Shown here: positions 3,744 to 12,441 of the stretch, piece after piece
Position numbering within the stretch: the first letter of the stretch is position 1
How the letters are laid out: each line of letters begins with the position of its first letter
From: a virus
Strand: one strand, 5' to 3'
IMG/VR virus record: IMGVR_UViG_3300037137_002010
Span: 1 to 41,601 of that record
Length of the DNA: 41,601 nt
The notes under the pieces: model-generated
What the model was told of the DNA's origin: nothing
The model's input: the letters and a program-made list of their open reading frames with translations, nothing else
Databases searched by the model: none
Made by a program: the position numbers and the translations under genes

Positions 3744-5009
3744 ATGGACACGAGCCTGCAAAAACTTTTGGTGCCGCATCCGGTCTACCGGTTGCCGGCG
3801 ACGCAAGAGGAGGCGCGCGTGTTGATGCAGTCGGTGGGCGGGGCGCCAGGATTCGTGGAGTGGGCGAAGAAACGTTTTGACCTGATCCAGGCCGAGAAGG
3901 TGGATCCGCTGCGGTATGGACACGAGTTAGCGCCGATCTGGAAAGACGCGCGGGAGTTGCTCGAGCGCGGGAATGACCTGCTGATCCTGGGCGGCAATCG
4001 GTCGGGCAAGACCGAGTTCGGGGCGAAGTTTGCCAACGAAATCATCGAGCGGAAGGCGTCGGCGAACGCGTGGTGTTTCCAGTCGAACGAAAGGGCGTCG
4101 ATCGAGCGGTTGCAGCCGTATGTGAACCATTACCTGCCGGCGGAGCAGCGGGACTTGGGCAAGATCGGAAAGATCACGTATATCAAGTATAATTTGGCGA
4201 ATGGGTTCAGCGAGGGTCGGTTTGTGAAACCGAATGGGAGTTTCTGCCGGTTCATGAACTATGAGATGGACCCGAGGTCCCTCGAGGGCGCCGAATTGGA
4301 CATTGCGTGGTGCGACGAGATGGTGCCGCCGGACGTATTGGATACGCTGCGGTTTCGGTTGGTAACGCGCGGGGGTAAGTTGATTGTGACATTCACGCCG
4401 CTCGAGGGTTATTCGGTGAGTGTGAAGCAATACCTCGAAGGCGCGCGGGTGATCAAGAGCTTGCCGGCGCCGTTGTTGCCCCAAGACAAGGTGCTGGTGT
4501 CCGGGTGTCCCAAGGGACAGATGCCATACATTCTCGAATGCGCCAAGCCGGGCCGGTTCGTGATCTGCTTCTTCACGGAGTGCAATCCGTGGGCGGGTTA
4601 CGACAACCTAGTGAAACAACTCTCGGGCGCGACGGAGTCGGACATCAAGTGCCGGGCGTATGGGTGGCCGACTAAGATGATCGCCGGGGCGTTCCCGAAG
4701 TTCGGGGACGTGAATATTGTGCCGGACAGCGAAGTGCCGTCCGATGGGACGAATTATCTGCTAGTGGACCCGCATGGGGCGCGGAACTGGTTCATGGTCT
4801 GGGTGCGAGTCACCAATGACGATCCGGCGCGGTATTTCGTGTATCGCGAGTGGCCGGGGATCGAGCTGGGCGAATGGGCGTTGCCGGCGGAGAAGGCGGA
4901 TGGCAAGGAAGGGCCGGGCCAACGGGCGGATGCCGGCCGGGGCGTGGTGGGGTACAAGAGGCTGATACTGGAACTGGAAAAGGCGGATGAACAGGAGGTA
5001 GCAGAGTGA
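3744..5009 (+). CDS. terL: Terminase large subunit, N-terminal part (ATPase and start of nuclease domain)
   Basis: This is the packaging motor that drives DNA into the prohead through the portal. The ATPase domain has Walker A GGNRSGKTE (about residues 82-90), Walker B LDIAWCDE (about 185-192) and a coupling motif region near TFTPLEGYS. The nuclease domain begins with LLVDPHG (Asp near 340) and then stops. The frame ends at TGA 5007-5009, inside the left arm of a palindromic repeat. The rest of the nuclease domain follows at 5096-5533. The 421 residues alone lack the downstream acidic motifs, so packaging needs the second part too. The start lies 18 bases after the DUF2303 stop. Genome-coordinate mapping of the gap would confirm that it is real rather than an assembly artefact. 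Confidence 0.93.
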   Translation: MDTSLQKLLVPHPVYRLPATQEEARVLMQSVGGAPGFVEWAKKRFDLIQAEKVDPLRYGHELAPIWKDARELLERGNDLLILGGNRSGKTEFGAKFANEIIERKASANAWCFQSNERASIERLQPYVNHYLPAEQRDLGKIGKITYIKYNLANGFSEGRFVKPNGSFCRFMNYEMDPRSLEGAELDIAWCDEMVPPDVLDTLRFRLVTRGGKLIVTFTPLEGYSVSVKQYLEGARVIKSLPAPLLPQDKVLVSGCPKGQMPYILECAKPGRFVICFFTECNPWAGYDNLVKQLSGATESDIKCRAYGWPTKMIAGAFPKFGDVNIVPDSEVPSDGTNYLLVDPHGARNWFMVWVRVTNDDPARYFVYREWPGIELGEWALPAEKADGKEGPGQRADAGRGVVGYKRLILELEKADEQEVAE

Positions 5010-5086
5010 GCAGAGAAAACCAAAACACCAAGAGCGCGAAGAACGCAAAGGAACGGAATTTCTCTGCGATCTCTGCTGCCTCCTGT
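4991..5086. repeat. Imperfect palindrome interrupting the terminase gene (REP/MITE-like)
   Basis: Two 28-base arms (4991-5018 and 5059-5086) are inverted copies matching at 24 of 28 positions, separated by 40 bases. The arms carry acaggagg / cctcctgt at the outside and cagagaaa / tttctctg at the inside. The sequence style (caaaacaccaag, tttctctgcg) resembles small dispersed intergenic palindromes of some environmental bacteria, not phage coding DNA. It splits the terminase into two open frames. No other copy is evident in this window. It is too short to be a self-splicing intron or an intein. Confidence 0.8.
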
Positions 5087-5095
5087 GAGAATTGA
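5006..5095 (+). CDS. Bridging mini-ORF inside the terminase interruption, 29 residues
   Basis: A GTG at 5006 overlaps the stop of the first terminase part (GTGA) and is preceded at the right distance by AGGAGGT in the palindrome arm. Its 29-codon frame ends at TGA 5093-5095, directly abutting the ATG of the second terminase part (TGAATG). The peptide is polar and shows no known domain. Its likely role, if translated, is only to carry ribosomes to the downstream start by termination-reinitiation. Translation is inference. Confidence 0.35.
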   Translation: MSRENQNTKSAKNAKERNFSAISAASCEN

Positions 5096-5533
5096 ATGAA
5101 CCTCACACCTGAACACATCACGGCGCGGATCATCGATCCGCGGGCGGGCTCGAACAAGGTGCCGGGCATCGACGAGGGCACGACGCTGATCGAGATGCTC
5201 GAGGAAGAGCAAATCGGCGCGGACGGCAAGGTGTCGGGACCTTCGATGGTGTTCGAGGCGGCGCCGGGGGCCAAGGTGGATGAAGGCACCACGCTGATCA
5301 ACGATTTGCTGGATTATAACCAGGAAAAGCCGGTGACGGTCGAGAACTGCCCGCATCTCTACGTGGCGGCGTCCTGCCAGAATACGATCTACGCGCTCCG
5401 GACCTGGACTGGCGCGGATGGCGAGAAGGGGGCCACCAAAGACCCGGTGGACTGTCTCAAGTGCGGGCTGAAGTATGGACTCGAATATGTGGGCGAGCAG
5501 TTCGTGATGGCGCGTAATGGAAGAGGATTCTGA
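5096..5533 (+). CDS. terL: Terminase large subunit, C-terminal nuclease part
   Basis: This 145-residue frame is the missing end of the terminase nuclease domain. Visible motifs are IIDPRAGS (about residues 12-19), DEGTTLI twice, INDLLDYN, LYVAASCQNTIYALRTW and GATKDPVDCL near residue 115, the order seen at the C-terminus of many podovirus-type large terminases. The conserved acidic residues of this part would complete the active site begun by LLVDPHG in the upstream frame. It has its own ATG, but no good Shine-Dalgarno lies just upstream. It probably depends on coupling through the mini-ORF. The stop overlaps the next gene's ATG (TGATG). Confidence 0.85.
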   Translation: MNLTPEHITARIIDPRAGSNKVPGIDEGTTLIEMLEEEQIGADGKVSGPSMVFEAAPGAKVDEGTTLINDLLDYNQEKPVTVENCPHLYVAASCQNTIYALRTWTGADGEKGATKDPVDCLKCGLKYGLEYVGEQFVMARNGRGF

Positions 5534-5733
5534 TGAGTGCCAAAGAGGAATATGACCGATTGCCGTTGCTCATGCGCGAGGGACAGCTCCGATCCTTCAC
5601 CGGCCTCAGCCGGCGGGCGGTGCGGAATTTGCGCGAGAACGGCCAGTTAGGCACCATCAAGATCGGCATTCAGGTCAGATACCTCAAAACGTCGTTATTC
5701 AAAATAGTCATAACAAAAGAAACTCAATCATGA
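5533..5733 (+). CDS. Small helix-turn-helix protein (excisionase/MerR-type fold)
   Basis: The 66 residues contain GQLRSFTGLSRRAVRNLRENGQL, the pattern of the HTH_17 winged helix used by excisionases and small phage regulators, followed by a short hydrophobic tail. Start and stop both overlap neighbours (TGATG with the terminase part, ATGA with the portal), so it is translated with packaging genes. Its place between terminase and portal is unusual for a regulator. Autoregulation or a structural DNA-binding role are both possible. The domain call is fair and the role unknown. Confidence 0.7.
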   Translation: MSAKEEYDRLPLLMREGQLRSFTGLSRRAVRNLRENGQLGTIKIGIQVRYLKTSLFKIVITKETQS

Positions 5734-7880
5734 ACGAACAAAACATTGAACAGGGAACTGACATCAAGCTGACGGAATTGCTGGCTGAGTATGAATCGGC
5801 GGTGGCCAGCGGGACGGCGGTAAACTCGGTCGCACTCGACGAACAGCGCCGGCTGATGTTGTGGGACCATCAGAGCGAGGACGGCCGTAAATGGGATGAG
5901 GACAGCGAGTCGGGCGAGGTCCTGCCCTGGAACGGCGCCGCCGATACCCGGGTGCCGTTGATCGACGAGGTCATCCAGGAACGCGTGGCGGTGCGCTGTG
6001 CGGCCGCGCGACGCGCCCAGGTGCAGGTCTCGGGCGTGGAGTTGGGCGATGCTGAGGCGACGGCCGCGGTGCGCCGGGCCTTGATCTGGTTGACCAGCGG
6101 GAAACTGCGCCGGCGCCTCAACGTCGAGCGCCAGTTAGCCGGCAATTACACGGACGAATTCGGCTGGTGCGTGGTCTATGTGGGCTGGTGCCGTCAGCTC
6201 ACGAAGTACCGTCGGGACATCACGCTCGAGATGCTGGTCCAGTGGTGCGCGCAGTTGCCGCCGGACAATCCCATCAGCCAATTGCCGGTGATGATCCAGG
6301 ATCCGGTTATGGAAGAGAGCGCGATTGCGACGATCCAAGTTTTGTATGGGCTATATGCCCAACAGGAAACGACCGGATTACATGCGTTGGAGTTGCAGCC
6401 CCTCACGAAAGCCGCGGCGCGCAAGATGATCACCGAGTTGCAGCGCGATGGCCGGACATCCATCGTACTGCCCAAAGTAGCCGTCAACGAACCGCGACCG
6501 ATAGCGCTGCGGCCTTATGTGGACGTGTTATTGGCTCAAGGTTCGACGGATATCCAGTCGGCGCGCTCGATCTTTTGGCGTCAGATGCTGACCGAGGCCG
6601 ATATCAAGGATCTGGCCTTGGCGGAAGATTGGGATGAGGCGTGGGTGGATGCAGCCGTAAAACAGAAAGGCAAGAGCGCGGCGGTGGATGTGCTCTCGAT
6701 TCAGAGCGGGCGCGCCCTGGACATGTTTGCCGACGATAAACGCGTGGAAGTCGTCTATGGTTTCCGGCGCACAGTCGATGACGATGGCGTGCCGCAGATC
6801 TGGTGTACGGTGTTTTGTCCGCAGGTCAAGGGACCGGGCAAGGCAGATCTGGTGGCGAAACACGTGCTGATCGATTATGGCCATGGCCAGTATCCGTTCG
6901 TTGACATGGCGCGCGAGCATCGCAACCGCAACATTCACGAGTCGCGTTCGGTGCCGGCGGTGGCGTACACCTGGCAACTCGAAGAGAAAGCCCAGCGCGA
7001 TGCACTGTTCAACCGGTCCGAATGGGACACCCTGCCACCGATCGAAGTTACTAAGTTGATGGGTATCAAAGTGCGGCTCGGGCCGGCCGCCTTGGTTCCG
7101 ACTTCGCGGGCGCAAGGCATCAAGGCCATCGAACTCTCGAGCCGGCCACCGTCGCTTGGGCTTGAGATGATCCGGCTGGTGCAGCAGCGCACGGACAACT
7201 ACTTCGGCCGCCCGAGCAACGACGTGCCGGCGTATCGCGCCCAAATCATGCAAGAGTTGATGGTGGCGGATTTCCTCGATGACTGGTCGATCATCTTGCT
7301 GATGATGCTGGCGCTCCAGGTCCAGTATGACCCGCAGAAACTGACGCGCGTCCTGGGCCGCCCTTGGCCGGCCAATCTTACGCCGGAAATCATCATGGAA
7401 CAGGTGGACGTGCTGATGGCGTTCGACGTGAAGGAAATCGATCCTGAATTTCTGCTCAAGAAAATGGACATCATCAGCCAGAGTGTCATTCCCGAGGACA
7501 CTGCTGGTGTGATTGATCGGGCCAAACTCACCCAAGCGAAACTGCGCTGGCTGGATCCGGCCCTGGCCGATGACCTGGTGATGGACCAGGAAGGCGCCCA
7601 GGCCAAGATGTGGAGCCAGGTCATGCAAACCGTGGGCATGGCCGCGTTGGGCAACGAGGCGCAATACACCCAGAACGATCCCACCGCCCAAACGAAACTG
7701 CAATACGTGCAGCAGATCGTGACGGCCAATCCAAAATACCAAATGCTGCTGCAAAAGGATCCGGACTTCCAGGAGCTCATGAAAAAGTACGTTGCCAACT
7801 TGATGCAGAGCATCAACCAGCAAGAGAACAAAATGGTCGGCCGGATCGGAGTGAAACCGCGGCAAATGTCGCAAGTCTAG
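5730..7880 (+). CDS. Portal (head-to-tail connector) protein
   Basis: At 716 residues this is the length of P22-type portals. It follows the terminase and precedes scaffold-like and capsid genes. The N-terminal part (VLPWNGAADTRVPLIDEVIQE) and the middle with HRNRNIHESRSVPA and WDTLPPI are typical of portals in podovirus-type prophages. The C-terminal 100 residues (MLLQKDPDFQELMKKYV, then Gln-rich) look like the helical barrel. It would form the dodecameric ring at one capsid vertex through which DNA is packaged and ejected. The ATG overlaps the stop of the HTH gene (ATGA). No catalytic motif is expected. The call rests on length, position and local sequence flavour. Confidence 0.88.
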   Translation: MNEQNIEQGTDIKLTELLAEYESAVASGTAVNSVALDEQRRLMLWDHQSEDGRKWDEDSESGEVLPWNGAADTRVPLIDEVIQERVAVRCAAARRAQVQVSGVELGDAEATAAVRRALIWLTSGKLRRRLNVERQLAGNYTDEFGWCVVYVGWCRQLTKYRRDITLEMLVQWCAQLPPDNPISQLPVMIQDPVMEESAIATIQVLYGLYAQQETTGLHALELQPLTKAAARKMITELQRDGRTSIVLPKVAVNEPRPIALRPYVDVLLAQGSTDIQSARSIFWRQMLTEADIKDLALAEDWDEAWVDAAVKQKGKSAAVDVLSIQSGRALDMFADDKRVEVVYGFRRTVDDDGVPQIWCTVFCPQVKGPGKADLVAKHVLIDYGHGQYPFVDMAREHRNRNIHESRSVPAVAYTWQLEEKAQRDALFNRSEWDTLPPIEVTKLMGIKVRLGPAALVPTSRAQGIKAIELSSRPPSLGLEMIRLVQQRTDNYFGRPSNDVPAYRAQIMQELMVADFLDDWSIILLMMLALQVQYDPQKLTRVLGRPWPANLTPEIIMEQVDVLMAFDVKEIDPEFLLKKMDIISQSVIPEDTAGVIDRAKLTQAKLRWLDPALADDLVMDQEGAQAKMWSQVMQTVGMAALGNEAQYTQNDPTAQTKLQYVQQIVTANPKYQMLLQKDPDFQELMKKYVANLMQSINQQENKMVGRIGVKPRQMSQV

Positions 7881-7883
7881 CAA

Positions 7884-8174
7884 ATGTTACGAATTATGAA
7901 CGAAGAACAAGTCAAGCAAACCCTGAAGGGCCTGAATGCGCGCGGGACAATTGCCCGGGCATTCCTGGCGGTGTTGGATCAACACATCGAGACCTGGCGC
8001 ACCGGTGCGATCGCGCCGACGCCGCCCAACCGCGATTACAGCGCCGGCGCGGCTTACGGCCTCGAACTTACCCGCAGCGCCATCATTGACATGCTATCGC
8101 CCGGCGAGGCTGATGAATCGTCGCTGCTGACCAAGCCGCCGGTGAAGGTGAGTTGGTGGAAAAAATGTTTCTGA
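7884..8174 (+). CDS. Hypothetical protein, 96 residues
   Basis: I do not recognise this protein. Starts are possible at 7884 (MLRIMNEEQ) or at 7896 (MNEEQVKQT), the second after a short A-rich stretch. It is a soluble, mainly helical protein: a helix around IARAFLAVLDQHIETW, a Pro-rich turn, and a C-terminal VSWWKKCF. It is 3 bases from the portal stop, so it is co-transcribed with it. Position fits a small morphogenesis or assembly protein. No evidence goes beyond that. Confidence 0.75.
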   Translation: MLRIMNEEQVKQTLKGLNARGTIARAFLAVLDQHIETWRTGAIAPTPPNRDYSAGAAYGLELTRSAIIDMLSPGEADESSLLTKPPVKVSWWKKCF

Positions 8175-8211
8175 AAGAAAGTGTAATAACCATCAAAACT
8201 GAAAGGCACAT

Positions 8212-8499
8212 ATGATCGAAGGACTCAAAACTATAATCTCCGGACCTGAACTCGCGCAACTCTGCGAAAACAAAGCGCTATATCACGAAGGCCGCGTGAG
8301 CGCCTTGTCCACGGCAAAATCGGCAATGTCGGAATCCGATCCGGGTCTGACGGGCGCGCAGACAGTCATCGACGGCCACAACGCGAAAGTGACCGAGTTC
8401 CGATTCATCGGCTCTTACATCAAGCCGACTGAAGCCTACCTGCTCAGTTATGACGACCTGCTCAAGTTGGGAGTCGCAGGTGTGGTTGCCGAGGGCTAA
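8212..8499 (+). CDS. Hypothetical protein at the left edge of the cassette array, 95 residues
   Basis: The ATG at 8212 is preceded by gaaaggcacat, a reasonable Shine-Dalgarno. The protein has a helical N-terminal half (ELAQLCENKALYHEGRVSAL) and a strand-rich C-terminal half (EFRFIGSYIKPTEAYLL). I do not recognise it. Its TAA stop (8497-8499) lies inside the 7-bp box GGCTAAC at the left edge of the cassette array. A cut GGCTAA^C leaves the whole gene intact, so it was probably a native phage gene present before the cassettes arrived. Confidence 0.78.
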   Translation: MIEGLKTIISGPELAQLCENKALYHEGRVSALSTAKSAMSESDPGLTGAQTVIDGHNAKVTEFRFIGSYIKPTEAYLLSYDDLLKLGVAGVVAEG

Positions 8500-8598
8500 C
8501 GAAAAGCTGAGCGACTGACATGAGCGCGCCGATGACATCCGATTGCAACCAAGACGCTGCCCGCGCTCATGGCAGTTCGCTCCAGCGTCTTGTTAGCC
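8494..8598 (-). repeat. attC-like site 1
   Basis: Outer boxes GGCTAAC (8494-8500) and GTTAGCC (8592-8598). Inner boxes gctgagcga and tcgctccagc pair with one bulged C and one bulged T. The start codon of the cytosine methyltransferase (8520) lies in the loop. The left box also holds the stop of the preceding native gene. The interior is almost identical to site 11. Confidence 0.88.
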
Positions 8599-9263
8599 GC
8601 CGTCCCCGTGCTCTGGACCTGTTTTGCTGTGCGGGCGGGGCGAGCATGGGGCTGCAACGCGCCGGATTCGATGTGACCGGAATGGACATCGCGCACCAAC
8701 CGCGATACCCGTTCGCGTTCGTCCAAGGCGATGCGCTCAAAGCTGACCTGTCCGGCTTCGATTTCGTGTGGGCGTCGCCTCCGTGCCAGCGATACACGCG
8801 AGCACAGAACGCCGCCAAGAATGCCGACGCTCATCCCGACCTTGTGGCGCCAATGCGAGCCAAGCTCGAAGCATGGGGTGGACTGTGGATCATGGAAAAT
8901 GTAGTCGGAGCTCCGCTGCGTAATCCGGCCACGGTATGCGGCCTGGCTCTCGGGCTTAAGGTAAAACGGCACCGGCTCTTTGAGAGCAACGTCCTGCTGA
9001 TGGTGCCACCGTGCCCGAGCCACGACCAAGACTACTACGTAATCTTCGGACACGAGGTGCGCAATCGGCGCCACGGGCAAGCCGCTGGCCGAAAGAACAA
9101 AATCGCCGAAGGCCGCAAGGCGATGGGTATAAACTGGATGACACGCGGCGAACTCTCCGAGGCAATCCCGCCGGCCTATTCGGAGTTCTTGGGGCGTCAG
9201 ATACTCGCGGCGCTCAAGGCGGCTAACGACCGAACTGAGCGACCGGCGCTCCCAACGATATGA
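8520..9263 (+). CDS. DNA (cytosine-5) methyltransferase, cassette 1
   Basis: The 247 residues carry the C5-methyltransferase motifs in order: LDLFCCAGGASMG (motif I, S-adenosylmethionine site, about residues 33-45), SPPCQR (motif IV with the catalytic Cys, about 87-92), WIMENV (motif VI, about 123-128), HRLFES (motif VIII), and AIPPAYSEFLGRQIL (motifs IX-X) near the end. It is short for the family but complete, as in phage orphan methyltransferases. It would methylate phage DNA and so help evade host restriction. The first 26 residues (through GSSLQRLV) and the last dozen (after AANDRTERP) are encoded by attC sites, not by the enzyme fold. The ATG at 8520 is needed because no later start precedes motif I. 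The stop overlaps the next start (ATGA). Confidence 0.95.
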   Translation: MSAPMTSDCNQDAARAHGSSLQRLVSRRPRALDLFCCAGGASMGLQRAGFDVTGMDIAHQPRYPFAFVQGDALKADLSGFDFVWASPPCQRYTRAQNAAKNADAHPDLVAPMRAKLEAWGGLWIMENVVGAPLRNPATVCGLALGLKVKRHRLFESNVLLMVPPCPSHDQDYYVIFGHEVRNRRHGQAAGRKNKIAEGRKAMGINWMTRGELSEAIPPAYSEFLGRQILAALKAANDRTERPALPTI

Positions 9264-9311
9264 CTACACCGAAGACGCCCGCGCCGGTTCGCTCCAGTGA
9301 GCTTGTTGTGC
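9221..9311 (-). repeat. attC-like site 2
   Basis: Outer boxes GGCTAAC (9221-9227) and GTTGTGC (9305-9311). The two do not match each other but match the far boxes of their own cassettes. Inner boxes actgagcga and tcgctccagt keep the bulged C, and stem gaccggcgc/gcgccggttc follows. The loop holds the ATGA overlap at 9260-9263. Confidence 0.87.
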
Positions 9312-9487
9312 ATTGGCTCGCAGGTGAACCGCCGTGGACGCTGATAGCGTGCAACACCAAAGGTCAAGAACGCTGCGTGATGACACGAGCCGGCTGGAAG
9401 GCGACGTGCAAGCTGTGCCGGCGGCACTACGAAGATACGAAGCGGCGTTTGCACAACGCAGAACTGAGCGACAGCCGCCCTCTATGA
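9260..9487 (+). CDS. Small Cys-containing protein, cassette 2 (75 residues)
   Basis: I do not recognise this protein. The core is HWLAGEPPWTLIACNTKGQE followed by WKATCKLCRRHYED. The CKLC pair with upstream Cys and downstream His could bind zinc. The N-terminal PAPVRSSELV and the C-terminal HNAELSDSRPL are encoded by the flanking attC sites. It starts at the ATGA overlap with the methyltransferase and ends at an ATGA overlap with the next gene. No membrane segment is present. Confidence 0.75.
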   Translation: MTTPKTPAPVRSSELVVHWLAGEPPWTLIACNTKGQERCVMTRAGWKATCKLCRRHYEDTKRRLHNAELSDSRPL

Positions 9488-9543
9488 CTACCGAACTACC
9501 AACGACGTGCGAGGCGGCTGTTCGCTCCAGTGACTTGTTAGGC
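9451..9543 (-). repeat. attC-like site 3
   Basis: Outer boxes GCACAAC (9451-9457) and GTTAGGC (9537-9543). GCACAAC is the exact complement of GTTGTGC at the start of the same cassette, a rare box variant shared only by this pair. Inner boxes actgagcga/tcgctccagt, stem cagccgcc/ggcggctg. The loop holds ATGA 9484-9487. Confidence 0.87.
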
Positions 9544-9819
9544 CCATTGACGTATCAGCCTGAAATCTGGCGCGTCGAAAAGGACACCATCTACGCCGCA
9601 ATCCCAGCCGTGGAATCGGGACTCGAATACGCACGGGAATGCCTCGCAACTCACGAAACGAATCTCGGCATGACAACGCTGAAAAACAAGACGTGGGCCG
9701 AGACGATGGAGAAAGACATCCGCCACATGGAGCGCACGCTGGAAATGCTGCGAGCGTGTGGGCCTAACGTCCGGGATGAGCTACCGCCGCCCGGACAGAA
9801 AGGAATAAATGCAACCTGA
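9484..9819 (+). CDS. Hypothetical protein, cassette 3 (111 residues)
   Basis: The start at 9484 overlaps the previous stop. After an attC-encoded leader (EAAVRSSDLLGP) comes a helical protein: YAAIPAVESGLEYARECLATHE, then KNKTWAETMEKDIRHMERTLEML, rich in charged residues and likely two to three helices. I do not recognise the family. The C-terminal tail after CGPNVRDE is encoded by site 4. It is the only cassette gene in which the outer box G is read as the third codon base. It overlaps the start of the next gene by 11 bases. Confidence 0.72.
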   Translation: MTTELPTTCEAAVRSSDLLGPLTYQPEIWRVEKDTIYAAIPAVESGLEYARECLATHETNLGMTTLKNKTWAETMEKDIRHMERTLEMLRACGPNVRDELPPPGQKGINAT

Positions 9820-9893
9820 CGCTCAAAACTCTCAGCAACCGCCCGACGAAGCCCAAAGCTGGGCGGCGGTTAGCTCCATCCCGCTTGTTCGGC
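9762..9893 (-). repeat. attC-like site 4 (longest)
   Basis: Outer boxes GCCTAAC (9762-9768) and GTTCGGC (9887-9893). Inner boxes gatgagcta and tagctccatc differ from the usual pair at both ends but still pair, again with one extra C. A long stem ccgccgccc/gggcggcgg follows. The larger loop carries the next start codon at 9809. Confidence 0.87.
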
Positions 9894-10090
9894 CAGTCCG
9901 TTGCTGGTTCTGCAATCAGCAGATGCACTATGCCGGAGACCCTAGACATGAACCCGAAGTGCGTGTGGAAGTCCACACCGACGCGAAAATCATGCGGTGC
10001 TTCAGCGAGTTCTACGCTCATGTGCGCTGCTGGTCTGCCGCGATTGCGCCGAACGACCAAGCTGAGGCGCGGCGAGAAAGAAAGTCATGA
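9809..10090 (+). CDS. Small Cys/His-rich protein, cassette 4 (93 residues)
   Basis: The core RCWFCNQQMHY with later RCFSEFYAHVRCW gives a CxxC plus His/Cys arrangement that could hold a zinc ion. I cannot name the family. The leader MQPDAQNSQQPPDEAQSW and AAVSSIPLVRP come from attC site 4, and the tail after IAPNDQAEARR from site 5. The preceding ggaataa may act as a Shine-Dalgarno (aggaataaATG). The stop overlaps the MazG-like gene's start (ATGA 10087-10090). Confidence 0.75.
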   Translation: MQPDAQNSQQPPDEAQSWAAVSSIPLVRPVRCWFCNQQMHYAGDPRHEPEVRVEVHTDAKIMRCFSEFYAHVRCWSAAIAPNDQAEARRERKS

Positions 10091-10139
10091 TTGAAACCAA
10101 GACCCAACCCGAGCCGTTGCCTCCAGCGACTGGTTCGGT
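10048..10139 (-). repeat. attC-like site 5
   Basis: Outer boxes GCCGAAC (10048-10054) and GTTCGGT (10133-10139). Inner boxes gctgaggc and gcctccagc: the change from the usual gagcg to gaggc is matched on the other arm (cgctc to gcctc), keeping the bulged C. The stem after the inner box is less perfect than in the others. Confidence 0.84.
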
Positions 10140-10395
10140 TGCCCTGTCGAACATCCTCTTTGAGCGGCGAAGGCAGGACAGCAAATGGGGCGTGCAGAAC
10201 CACGACATGGAGAAGTGGCTCGTCATCCTGCAAGAGGAGTGCGGGGAAGCGGCCGAAGCCGCACTCGACAATGACGGATGGAAATACCGTGACGAGATGG
10301 TACACGTTTCCGCCGTCGCACTGGCCGCAGTGGAATGCTTTGACCGACGCTTTCCAAGTTCACCGAACGTCCGAACTGAGCGACCCGGCCCATGA
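10087..10395 (+). CDS. MazG-like nucleotide pyrophosphohydrolase, cassette 5
   Basis: The 102 residues match the short phage MazG-like proteins: FERRRQDSKWG and HDMEKWLVILQEECGEAAEAAL, carrying the Glu-rich EExxE magnesium-binding helix (about residues 47-61), then YRDEMVHVSAVALAAVE, which supplies the second acidic helix. Such enzymes hydrolyse (d)NTPs to monophosphates. In phages they are thought to alter nucleotide or alarmone pools. The fold needs dimers or tetramers. The first 17 or so residues are attC leader and the tail PNVRTERPGP is attC-encoded. The stop overlaps the next start (ATGA). Confidence 0.85.
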   Translation: MIETKTQPEPLPPATGSVALSNILFERRRQDSKWGVQNHDMEKWLVILQEECGEAAEAALDNDGWKYRDEMVHVSAVALAAVECFDRRFPSSPNVRTERPGP

Positions 10396-10455
10396 AGACT
10401 CCCGAATTGCAACCGAGACGCGATGGCCGGGTTCGCTCCAGTGAGCTTGTTGGGC
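10362..10455 (-). repeat. attC-like site 6
   Basis: Outer boxes ACCGAAC (10362-10368) and GTTGGGC (10449-10455). Inner boxes actgagcga/tcgctccagt with bulged C, stem cccggcc/ggccggg with a bulged T between. The loop holds ATGA 10392-10395. Confidence 0.87.
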
Positions 10456-10682
10456 TGCCGTGGATCAATGTCCTGAAAATCAGCGCATCCGAAAGCGTCC
10501 ACATATCGGGAAACAGCGCGAAAATCTGGATACAATGGAACAAAGGTGAAAAGCGATACGACTTCGAGATGGCCGGAGAAGCTGCCGGGCAACTGTGCAA
10601 CTGCATCCTGGCTCAAATGCGTAAAGGACTCCCGAAGAAATATCCATACGTGAAGCAGCCCAACGACCAAGCTCACACATGA
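10392..10682 (+). CDS. Hypothetical protein, cassette 6 (96 residues)
   Basis: After the leader MKTPELQPRRDGRVRSSELV, the body is strand-rich (INVLKISASESVHISGNSAKIWIQWN, broken here for length: the repeats of Ser and Ile suggest a small beta fold), then GEKRYDFEMAGEA and a helix leading to ILAQMRKGLPKKYP. I do not recognise the family. The tail PNDQAHT is encoded by attC site 7. It is linked to both neighbours by ATGA overlaps. Confidence 0.72.
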   Translation: MKTPELQPRRDGRVRSSELVGLPWINVLKISASESVHISGNSAKIWIQWNKGEKRYDFEMAGEAAGQLCNCILAQMRKGLPKKYPYVKQPNDQAHT

Positions 10683-10755
10683 GGGCCGCCAACCAAACTC
10701 CCGAATCGCTCCCGAGCCCGGCGCGGCCCTCATTGTGTGCAGCGCCTTGTTCGGC
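10658..10755 (-). repeat. attC-like site 7 (divergent inner boxes)
   Basis: Outer boxes GCCCAAC (10658-10664) and GTTCGGC (10749-10755). Inner boxes gctcacac and gtgtgcagc are unlike the common gctgagcg pair, yet pair with each other with the same single bulged C. Stem atgagggccgc/gcggccctcat follows. The start codon ATG 10679 is in the stem itself. Confidence 0.86.
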
Positions 10756-10894
10756 AATTCGCATCGGACAGTTCCGTGTGAGCAAGCTCGGAGCCGGAAA
10801 ATGCTGGATAGCAAATAGCGATGGAGAAGGCATGGAAACGTCCGAAGCAAAACTAGCCGAGCATATAGGCGACTACTTCAAACGGGAGTTTTGA
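10679..10894 (+). CDS. Hypothetical protein, cassette 7 (71 residues)
   Basis: The attC-encoded leader runs to about residue 26 (through LCAAPCSA). The body then reads IGQFRVSKLGAGKCWI, a small strand pair, followed by GEGMETSEAKLAEHIGDYFKREF, an amphipathic helix. Very short proteins with a GEGMETSE...YFK pattern occur in phage and cassette regions, with unknown role. The stop is before the attC box, so this gene has no attC-encoded tail. The next start is 37 bases downstream. Confidence 0.7.
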   Translation: MRAANQTPESLPSPARPSLCAAPCSAIRIGQFRVSKLGAGKCWIANSDGEGMETSEAKLAEHIGDYFKREF

Positions 10895-10895
10895 C

Positions 10896-11002
10896 GCCGA
10901 ACGATAGAGGTCAGGCACGGCGCGACAACCAATGACTATGGAAAACACGACAGACACAAAACTACCAGCGAGCCCGCCGTTGCCTGCACCGGCTGGTTCG
11001 GG
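10896..11002 (-). repeat. attC-like site 8 (divergent inner boxes)
   Basis: Outer boxes GCCGAAC (10896-10902) and GTTCGGG (10996-11002). Inner boxes ggtcaggca and tgcctgcacc are another non-standard but mutually complementary pair with the same bulged C. Stem cggcg/cgccg and a longer loop carry the ATG at 10932. Confidence 0.86.
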
Positions 11003-11183
11003 GCGACGGCGACGATGCCAATGGCTCGTGGAACTGAAAGGATGGCGCGACTGCGGCAGGCTGGCCACGCACATCCGAAGCGACTGCGGCCTGGCGTACT
11101 GTGCCGACCATGCGCGCCTGATGCTGCCATATACCACATTCCAAACCATTGCCCCGAACGAAAAGGTGAGCGATGGCCTCTGA
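10932..11183 (+). CDS. Small Cys/His-rich protein, cassette 8 (83 residues)
   Basis: A Pro-rich leader (LPASPPLPAPAGSG) leads into RRRRCQWLVELKGWRDCG, then SDCGLAYCADHARL. Four Cys and two His in this order suggest a small zinc-binding knuckle. I cannot name the family. The ATG could be 10932 or 10938 in the same frame. The tail APNEKVSDGL is encoded by site 9. The end overlaps the next gene's start by 11 bases. Confidence 0.74.
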   Translation: MTMENTTDTKLPASPPLPAPAGSGRRRRCQWLVELKGWRDCGRLATHIRSDCGLAYCADHARLMLPYTTFQTIAPNEKVSDGL

Positions 11184-11239
11184 AAACTCTCGAATTGTGA
11201 GCGGCGTTGAAGGCCATTCGCTCGACCGCCTGGTTCGGT
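11153..11239 (-). repeat. attC-like site 9 (shortest)
   Basis: Outer boxes CCCGAAC (11153-11159) and GTTCGGT (11233-11239). CCCGAAC pairs exactly with GTTCGGG at the start of the same cassette. Inner boxes ggtgagcga/tcgctcgacc keep one bulge, but here it is G rather than C. Stem tggcc/ggcca follows. The loop carries ATG 11173. Confidence 0.86.
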
Positions 11240-11445
11240 GGATTCCCGTCGCGGAGAAACTGCCGGAGGGGGATGAAGTCCTATACTGGGACGGCGAGCA
11301 AGTCAGCACGTTCTTCCCATGCACAGGAGACACTCCCGAAAATGAGGCGGCGGCGCGATGTGCGTCCTTCGGGATCACGCACTGGATGCCAATGCCAATT
11401 CCACCGAACGACCAAGCTGAGCGACTGCCGGCCCAAAAACTATGA
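11173..11445 (+). CDS. DUF551 domain protein, cassette 9
   Basis: The 90 residues contain the DUF551 signature: RWIPVAEKLPEGDEVLYWDG near residues 22-42 and ITHWMPMPIPP near the end, with the conserved Trp-His-Trp pattern. DUF551 proteins are common in phages and prophages; their function is not established. The leader MASENSRIVSGVEGHSLDRLV is attC-derived, and the tail PNDQAERLPAQKL comes from site 10. The natural DUF551 ending (MPIPP) lies right at the cassette edge, so the tail is an addition. The stop overlaps the next start (ATGA). Confidence 0.9.
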   Translation: MASENSRIVSGVEGHSLDRLVRWIPVAEKLPEGDEVLYWDGEQVSTFFPCTGDTPENEAAARCASFGITHWMPMPIPPNDQAERLPAQKL

Positions 11446-11493
11446 ATACAACTGAGACGCAATCCGGCAGTTCGCTCCAGCGCCTTGTTCGGC
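11403..11493 (-). repeat. attC-like site 10
   Basis: Outer boxes ACCGAAC (11403-11409) and GTTCGGC (11487-11493). Inner boxes gctgagcga/tcgctccagc with bulged C, stem ctgccgg/ccggcag with bulged T. The loop holds ATGA 11442-11445. Confidence 0.88.
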
Positions 11494-11726
11494 GTTGGTA
11501 CGTCACGACCAACTGCGGAATGGCTGCGAAGGGAGACAACGGCGATAACCCGCCGTGGCTCGGGCGGTGCTGGGGATTCTGGCTTCCGCGCCTTCGGTGG
11601 AACGGCGGCAAGCACTGGCGGGGCGAGTGCTGCGACGTGACCGCCCAATGGCTCTGCTTTTGGTGGGGCTTCACAATATGGCCGCACGCGAAACCAACGC
11701 CGCCGAACGAAAAGCTGAGCGACTGA
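11442..11726 (+). CDS. Trp/Cys-rich hypothetical protein, cassette 10 (94 residues)
   Basis: Eleven Trp and several Cys in a short protein: RRWYVTTNCGM, PPWLGRCWGFWLP, KHWRGECCD, WLCFWWGFTIWP. The hydrophobic C-terminal part could touch a membrane or form a disulfide/zinc-stabilised fold. I do not recognise it. The leader GSSLQRLV and the tail PPNEKLSD are attC-encoded. The stop is 1 base before the next ATG (TGACATG arrangement with the second methyltransferase). Confidence 0.72.
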   Translation: MNTTETQSGSSLQRLVRRWYVTTNCGMAAKGDNGDNPPWLGRCWGFWLPRLRWNGGKHWRGECCDVTAQWLCFWWGFTIWPHAKPTPPNEKLSD

Positions 11727-11806
11727 CATGAGCGCGCCAACGACATCCGATTCCAACCAAGACGCTGCCCGCGCTCATGGCAGTTCGCTCCAGCGTCTGG
11801 TTGGGC
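11702..11806 (-). repeat. attC-like site 11
   Basis: Outer boxes GCCGAAC (11702-11708) and GTTGGGC (11800-11806). The interior, from the first C to the last spacer, is nearly identical to site 1 (three differences in about 90 bases). Both sites open a DNA methyltransferase gene. Inner boxes gctgagcga/tcgctccagc with bulged C. The loop carries ATG 11728. Confidence 0.88.
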
Positions 11807-12441
11807 GTCATTCCACGGCGACTCTCATACTGGGCGACTCTGAAACGATGGACAGAATCGAAGCCGATGCGCTCGTGACTGACCCGCCGTATGGCCACGG
11901 CTACAAATCAAACGGCTGCTGCCTCGTGAAGAAAGGTAACTGGCAACCGACGCAAGGCCCGAAGCCTCTCGAATGGAATGAGCAGCCGTTCGACCCGGCG
12001 CGATGGCTGAACTACCCGACCGTAATCCTGTGGGGTGCGAACCACTACGCGAGCCGCCTGCCAGACTCTCCTGCGTGGTATGTCTGGGACAAGCGCGACG
12101 GCGTGGGCGAAAACAATCTCTCGGACTGCGAACTCGCATGGTGCAACGTCGGCGGCAGCGCACGGCTGAAACGTCACCTGTGGATGGGACTATGCCGCGA
12201 CTCTGAAATCGGAAGCCACCTGCACCCGACGCAAAAGCCGGTGGTCGTGATGGCGTGGGCAATGGAGAGGGCGAAAATCAAGAAAGGCGCAACCGTGCTA
12301 GACCCATACATGGGCAGCGGGACAACCGGAATCGCGGCAATCCGCCTCGGCATGAATTTCATCGGCATCGAACGGGATGCCGAATACTACAAACTGGCGT
12401 GCGACCGTATCGCGCACGAACTGGATGGCGCGTTGCTATGA
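11728..12441 (+). CDS. DNA methyltransferase, N6-adenine/N4-cytosine type, cassette 11
   Basis: The 237 residues contain the catalytic DPPYGHGY (about residues 52-59) before the S-adenosylmethionine motif DPYMGSGTTGIAA (about 192-204). This order places it in the beta-type amino-methyltransferases, with TQKPVVVM preceding motif I as usual. The final IGIERDAEYYKLAC is a standard ending. It would modify adenine or cytosine N4 in phage DNA, probably as an orphan anti-restriction enzyme; no nuclease partner is adjacent. The first 25 residues (to SSLQRLV) are nearly the same as in the cassette 1 methyltransferase because both come from near-identical attC DNA. The stop precedes the last outer box. 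Confidence 0.95.
   Translation: MSAPTTSDSNQDAARAHGSSLQRLVGRHSTATLILGDSETMDRIEADALVTDPPYGHGYKSNGCCLVKKGNWQPTQGPKPLEWNEQPFDPARWLNYPTVILWGANHYASRLPDSPAWYVWDKRDGVGENNLSDCELAWCNVGGSARLKRHLWMGLCRDSEIGSHLHPTQKPVVVMAWAMERAKIKKGATVLDPYMGSGTTGIAAIRLGMNFIGIERDAEYYKLACDRIAHELDGALL

Follow-up and report, generated by a model that had tools for sequence, protein, structure and literature searches.

A large-terminase gene divided by a palindromic repeat in a phage of probable Verrucomicrobiota hosts, and its possible expression as two coupled chains

The large-terminase gene of the phage described here is cut in two by a near-palindrome at positions 4991-5086 of the window, the window being the whole stretch of DNA analysed (41,601 nucleotides, IMG/VR record IMGVR_UViG_3300037137_002010). 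The most likely reading, held with moderate confidence from sequence, is that coupled translation yields a working terminase made of two chains. The hosts of the virus are probably Verrucomicrobiota bacteria. The two parts of the gene and their conserved acidic residues are located as follows:

3744-5009, plus strand: TerL-N, 421 aa, with the ATPase domain and the first half of the RNase H nuclease domain
4767-4769, plus strand: codon of D342, the conserved Asp of the first nuclease strand, on chain 1 (invariant column; strand 338-346 of the structure modelled for an intact relative)
5096-5533, plus strand: TerL-C, 145 aa, with the second half of the nuclease domain
5135-5137, plus strand: codon of D14 of TerL-C, in the IDPRAG motif at the end of strand 4 (near-invariant column)
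5441-5452, plus strand: codons of D116-D119 of TerL-C, KDPVD motif (near-invariant columns)

Judged by its motifs and predicted fold, the gene is a large terminase (TerL) cut inside its nuclease domain. TerL-N matches Terminase_6N (E 6.5e-8, residues 80-232) and PHROG 2 (terminase large subunit), and it has the Walker-type motifs of a TerL ATPase domain, with conserved GGNRSGKTE and WCDE. The RNase H-like nuclease is recognised by a fold match and by its conserved Asp columns, which are here distributed over two chains. Almost nothing is missing from the split terminase, because a terminase profile of 591 positions is covered by TerL-N at 14-456 and by TerL-C at 459-588. Near-invariant columns are kept at 99 of 123 positions in TerL-N and at 30 of 33 in TerL-C, which is 63% identical to the intact terminase L004. 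No second terminase was seen among the window proteins scanned. The original prediction was that active-site residues may lie on different chains, and conserved acidic residues are indeed found on both pieces: D342 on chain 1, and the IDPRAG Asp together with the KDPVD Asps on chain 2. Considering the fold and what is known of terminase nucleases, these residues would be the metal-binding or catalytic acids.

Relatives were gathered from viral contigs by scanning with TerL-C and with a TerL-N profile, giving 160 loci. In about 136 of them the tested ATPase and nuclease motifs stand in a single uninterrupted frame, the remaining loci being cut by contig ends or differing in a motif, and only one of the 160, a second strain of the phage (the sister contig), was found split at the site of the window. 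Closer uninterrupted relatives were sought; apart from the sister contig, those in viral contigs do not exceed about 51% identity for part 1 and 63% for part 2, and none closer was found in 388 + 373 sampled genomes. The stretch from the GRG motif to IDPRA measures 29 residues in 144 of the 146 relatives measured; in the window it contains about 125 extra nt, which is not a multiple of three and shifts the frame:

4986-5110, plus strand: net inserted stretch, approximate (125 nt), with ends uncertain by several nt and the loop length of the relatives taken as fixed

In the structure model of an intact relative (mean pLDDT 81, pTM 0.59), the cut corresponds to residues 414-417, a loop between helix 402-413 and strand 418-423, which is the fourth strand. 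A PDB sequence search found nothing and a fold search was used instead; it matched D6E, Sf6 gp2, T4 gp17 and the P22 nuclease domain, with whole-chain TM-scores that are modest because the two domains are mobile, as expected. These terminases share the ATPase and RNase H nuclease fold with the intact relative and are single chains, whereas the nuclease domain of the window is spread over two. Alignment with intact relatives had been proposed as the way to the exact insertion point; it placed the site in this loop, but the excess of about 125 nt goes beyond the 96-nt palindrome alone.

The palindrome and the translation signals associated with it are the following:

4991-5018, plus strand: left arm of the palindrome, 28 nt
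4994-5000, plus strand: AGGAGGT, the Shine-Dalgarno (SD) site of the bridge, in the left arm (predicted duplex; pairs with the right arm in the folded RNA)
5006-5009, plus strand: GTGA, in which the bridge start GTG (5006-5008) overlaps the TerL-N stop (GAG-TGA), by direct reading
5006-5095, plus strand: bridge ORF of 29 codons, with its stop TGA at 5093-5095
5059-5086, plus strand: right arm of the palindrome, 28 nt
5093-5098, plus strand: TGAATG, in which the bridge stop abuts the TerL-C start ATG at 5096, by direct reading

The 28-bp-arm palindrome interrupting the nuclease domain, the GTGA overlap, the 29-codon bridge, the AGGAGGT of the left arm and the TGAATG junction had all been predicted, and each was read base for base in its expected place. 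The arms are complementary at 24 of 28 positions and are separated by a 40-nt spacer; the best 28-nt arms in 60 shuffles of the region do not surpass 18 of 28. The DNA fold of the region has a z of -6.2, and no shuffle among 200 was equally stable. The SD/anti-SD duplex of the bridge (-11.1 kcal/mol) is the strongest of the 24 starts tested in the window phage, where the next best reaches -6.6 kcal/mol and the TerL-C start -2.7. The predicted RNA fold pairs the whole SD of the bridge with the right arm and leaves TGAATG mostly free. The sequence traits of translational coupling are consequently present, that is, overlapping or abutting stop and start codons together with an SD sequestered in the predicted fold.

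The bridge and TerL-C share one reading frame, and a -1 shift plus readthrough of the TGA at 5093 would fuse them. A full-length protein could then be obtained by recoding, either through such a frameshift with stop readthrough, through translational bypassing of the hairpin or through RNA excision. Nevertheless, this is very improbable: two independent events would be required, no slippery heptamer is read at the TerL-N stop, and an Rfam scan of the window at the gathering threshold returned no family, neither a self-splicing intron nor a recoding element. A homing endonuclease insert was also considered and rejected, the insert holding only the 29-codon ORF.

The sister contig (IMGVR_UViG_3300032516_005066) is 96.5% identical in DNA over window 3744-8515 and is split identically. 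The sole difference inside the element is a change of 5006 from G to A, by which the bridge start GTG becomes ATG, the overlap reads ATGA in place of GTGA and the TerL-N stop is kept. Palindromes are prone to mis-assembly, but an assembly or sequencing artefact is scarcely credible here because this second contig has the same split: the two contigs differ at 3.5% of positions and agree on the element and on both junctions, and the element sequence fits an independent family model.

Neither half has a stop, a frameshift or a lost conserved acid in either strain, and neither of the contrary outcomes that had been envisaged, reads with an uninterrupted gene or relatives with both parts degenerate, was encountered. 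Between the window and the sister contig, dS of part 1 is 0.291 and dN is 0.028. On the other hand, there are zero differences over 5007-5968, and this tract was probably exchanged recently, because it contains no differences while dS in part 1 is 0.29. If so, the low dN/dS of part 1 may predate the split, and its value as proof of selection after the split is weakened by the difference-free tract. At window 4974-5007, a synonymous divergence of 29% drops to none at the element, as if at a recombination breakpoint.

The main rival explanation is that the terminase was inactivated by the insertion, in which case the contigs would represent either defective prophages or alleles that died recently, and the signals for coupling would be coincidental to the sequence or usual context of the element. 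The identical tract agrees with this, as the allele could be recent, and so does the single-chain terminase normal in the roughly 136 relatives with both motifs in one frame; moreover, both copies could be declining prophages because the phage has an integrase gene. Death of the gene is nonetheless considered rather doubtful, since both halves are undamaged in two strains and the remaining genes of the window are long intact ORFs.

The palindrome is a member of a repeat family. With a covariance model derived from 15 copies other than that of the window, window 4986-5091 scores 60.1 bits (E about 1e-13); outside the window and the sister contig, the 335 kb searched contained a single match, of 16.5 bits, which is at chance level. 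The exact right-arm pattern was found in three contigs over 84,980 genomes, all of them from Verrucomicrobiota, and family copies (E up to 0.001) occur in 94 of 388 sampled Verrucomicrobiota genomes, the copy counts per genome being lower bounds. The canonical ends of the family are (TT)GAACAGGAGG...CCTCCTGTTC(AA), its length is 52-140 bp, and related sub-families include ACAGAAG and AACCACGGAG. A purely host-derived repeat was rejected: the family resides in phages too, since portal, terminase or tail genes are present on three copy-rich contigs (3 to 7 copies each), and two further sequence patterns retrieved more viral contigs with copies. Thus the search of bacterial genomes that had been proposed for finding the source of the palindrome led to a repeat family of Verrucomicrobiota that is also phage-resident. 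In the phage contigs many copies lie at gene junctions, the upstream stop often being no more than 25 nt away.

Regarding its classification, the element has the terminal inverted repeats of a MITE (24 of 28 positions paired in the arms, conserved ends). A target-site duplication cannot be taken as proof of a MITE: ATGAAC flanks the window copy, and other copies inspected by eye have no consistent duplication. Membership of the REPs of GTAG/CGTC type was discarded as well, as the element has no GTAG or CGTC end tag and is not a tagged stem-loop of 20-40 bp. No description of the family was found in a limited open-licence literature, including a search by consensus sequence.

The usual position of these elements at gene junctions allows the reverse order: a small frame-shifting duplication, for example, would have split the gene, and the repeat would have settled at the new boundary afterwards. 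Such a history is compatible with a two-chain enzyme or with a dead gene. About 29 of the 125 inserted nt, unaccounted for by the 96-nt palindrome, and the ATGAAC at both insert borders (4987-4992 and 5096-5101) would also agree with it. However, no intermediate split without the element was found among the relatives, and the only relative split at this site, the sister, carries the element, so that this order of events is regarded as unlikely.

The stop/start coupling layout foreseen for the window does exist, and unrelated phages show it again at gene junctions that carry the element. At L139 (13908-14000) the upstream gene ends in ATGA, and a 30-codon ORF runs across the element, with its stop at most 5 nt from the next start; L290 has the same ending, a 29-codon ORF spanning the element and a stop equally close to the next start. 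The window has the same layout as these two junctions, but inside a gene, and the bridges of L139 and L290 start just before the element, unlike that of the window. Bridges of this kind are not automatic because only two of 90 copy-orientations, one of them the window, have an SD-like motif in the element with a start 3-12 nt on and an open frame, which speaks against the coincidence assumed in the dead-gene explanation.

Two further terminase homologues are divided. In G218 (L229), a Verrucomicrobiota genome, about 200 nt of repeats, which contain several stops, separate the ATPase part of the homologue from its nuclease part, and the start signals of the nuclease part are AGGAGG, 7 nt and GTG. 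In G019 (L226, reverse strand, 2088-2580), a small ORF (MKTIAKMVNGNYLVEV...) stands between the two terminase parts, each of which has its own start signals. Splitting therefore recurs at different places in this terminase family. The splitting repeats of L229 (2296-2500 and 3340-3530, prophage-like) are of several types (ACCACGGATTACACGGAT, GAACGTCGAACGTCGAACGTT, GATTAGGATTAGG), and the next intergenic space is filled with similar repeats.

According to the two-chain reading, the large-terminase gene of this lineage contains a palindromic repeat that is shared by Verrucomicrobiota and phages (net insertion of about 125 nt) and that would have turned one gene into three coupled cistrons, namely TerL-N, the 29-codon bridge and TerL-C. 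In the naked mRNA the repeat would fold and bury the AGGAGG of the bridge. On reaching the TerL-N stop, a ribosome would occupy the left arm, open the hairpin and free the SD, and it could then re-initiate at the GTG (ATG in the sister phage) that overlaps this stop. Unmasking of a hairpin-hidden SD by the ribosome is the usual logic of translational coupling. Once the bridge stop is reached, re-initiation would take place at the abutting ATG of TerL-C, and the two chains would reassemble into one active terminase with nuclease acids from both. Several lines of evidence argue for this scheme: i) the same split in a second strain, whose sole change in the element would improve the bridge start, ii) the loop position of the cut, the retained terminase profile and the absence of another terminase among the scanned window proteins, iii) the sequestered SD, strongest of those compared, the same bridges at unrelated junctions and the two further split terminases of Verrucomicrobiota, iv) by analogy, the split phage enzymes with full activity that are on record (PMC2988022). 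Against it stand the low dN/dS of part 1, which may predate the split, and the inserted nucleotides outside the palindrome. If both halves are made and assembled, an essential motor protein can be cut between its catalytic residues and still work, and a dispersed repeat with its own restart signals could convert a lethal insertion into a gene split, which would be a concrete and testable way for repeats to generate gene boundaries.

Neither the splitting of genes by inserts nor translational coupling is new. The nrdA gene of phage Aeh1 is split by insertion of mobE and gene 43 of phage 25 is split as 43A/43B, the products reassembling into active enzyme, and gene 43 of phage 44RR is split by an intercistronic untranslated sequence without endonuclease (PMC2988022). 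As in the window, an insert divides a key phage enzyme into two chains; the insert of the window, however, is a dispersed palindromic repeat with its own SD and a 29-codon coupling ORF, and the enzyme is the packaging terminase. Short palindromic repeats inside genes have also been described, both as REPs of the verrucomicrobium Opitutus terrae (many cases) and other bacteria and as RPE elements of Rickettsia (PMC3733652). Those intragenic repeats measure 20-40 bp, carry a GTAG or CGTC tag and reportedly form an in-frame part of a single ORF (PMC3733652), whereas the window element exceeds that length, has no such tag and divides its gene into coupled ORFs. The RU-1/2/3 repeats of enterobacteria are small and mobile, contain ORFs and are read in frame with genes; they differ from the window element in sequence and hosts, and the linking of gene halves by stop and start codons is unreported for them (PMC2759123, PMC2229807). 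The limited open-licence literature searched yielded no palindromic repeat that supplies a coupling ORF within an essential phage gene.

A broader proposal, put forward tentatively, is that this family of palindromes serves in Verrucomicrobiota phages as a general translation module, which would couple the neighbours of a junction through an SD hairpin and an ORF of 29-30 codons or be read as a signal peptide, and which here would have made a terminase nuclease of two chains completed in trans. Translation of the family in phages also appears to take several other forms. In phage contigs the repeat supplies, in frame, the N-terminus of the gene that follows, which resembles a Sec signal peptide, the left arm encoding Arg/Lys/Gln and the right arm Leu/Phe/Cys (e.g. 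MKKNQSRSNRSKQRQQRPKGNFLLLCSLCYLLFNCFGLPARAQ). Of 13 phage copies with a frame open through them, 6 have a signal-peptide-like score, versus 36 of 2000 random placements. These copies are:

L137, 3991-4088, 4581-4652 and 8797-8875: signal-peptide-like copies
L139, 9466-9525: signal-peptide-like copy
L141, 8934-8994 and 10942-11011: signal-peptide-like copies
L286, 2332-2396: signal-peptide-like copy, by eye

Elsewhere in the phage record, an integron-like gene-cassette array was observed (window 8500-11815; L142 5660-6810), with about 10 attC-like right halves, compared with 4 in the sister contig. It consists of imperfect hairpins with GTTCGGC/GTTAGGC ends, small ORFs between them and two DNA methyltransferase genes, and the cassettes seem to differ between strains because homology with the sister contig stops at 8515, the first attC-like site. 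The two ends of the contig (window 1-139 and 41503-41601) share one 12-bp tandem array, (AAGCACTGGCCC)n; the record therefore probably represents a whole circular map that was opened within a coding tandem repeat.
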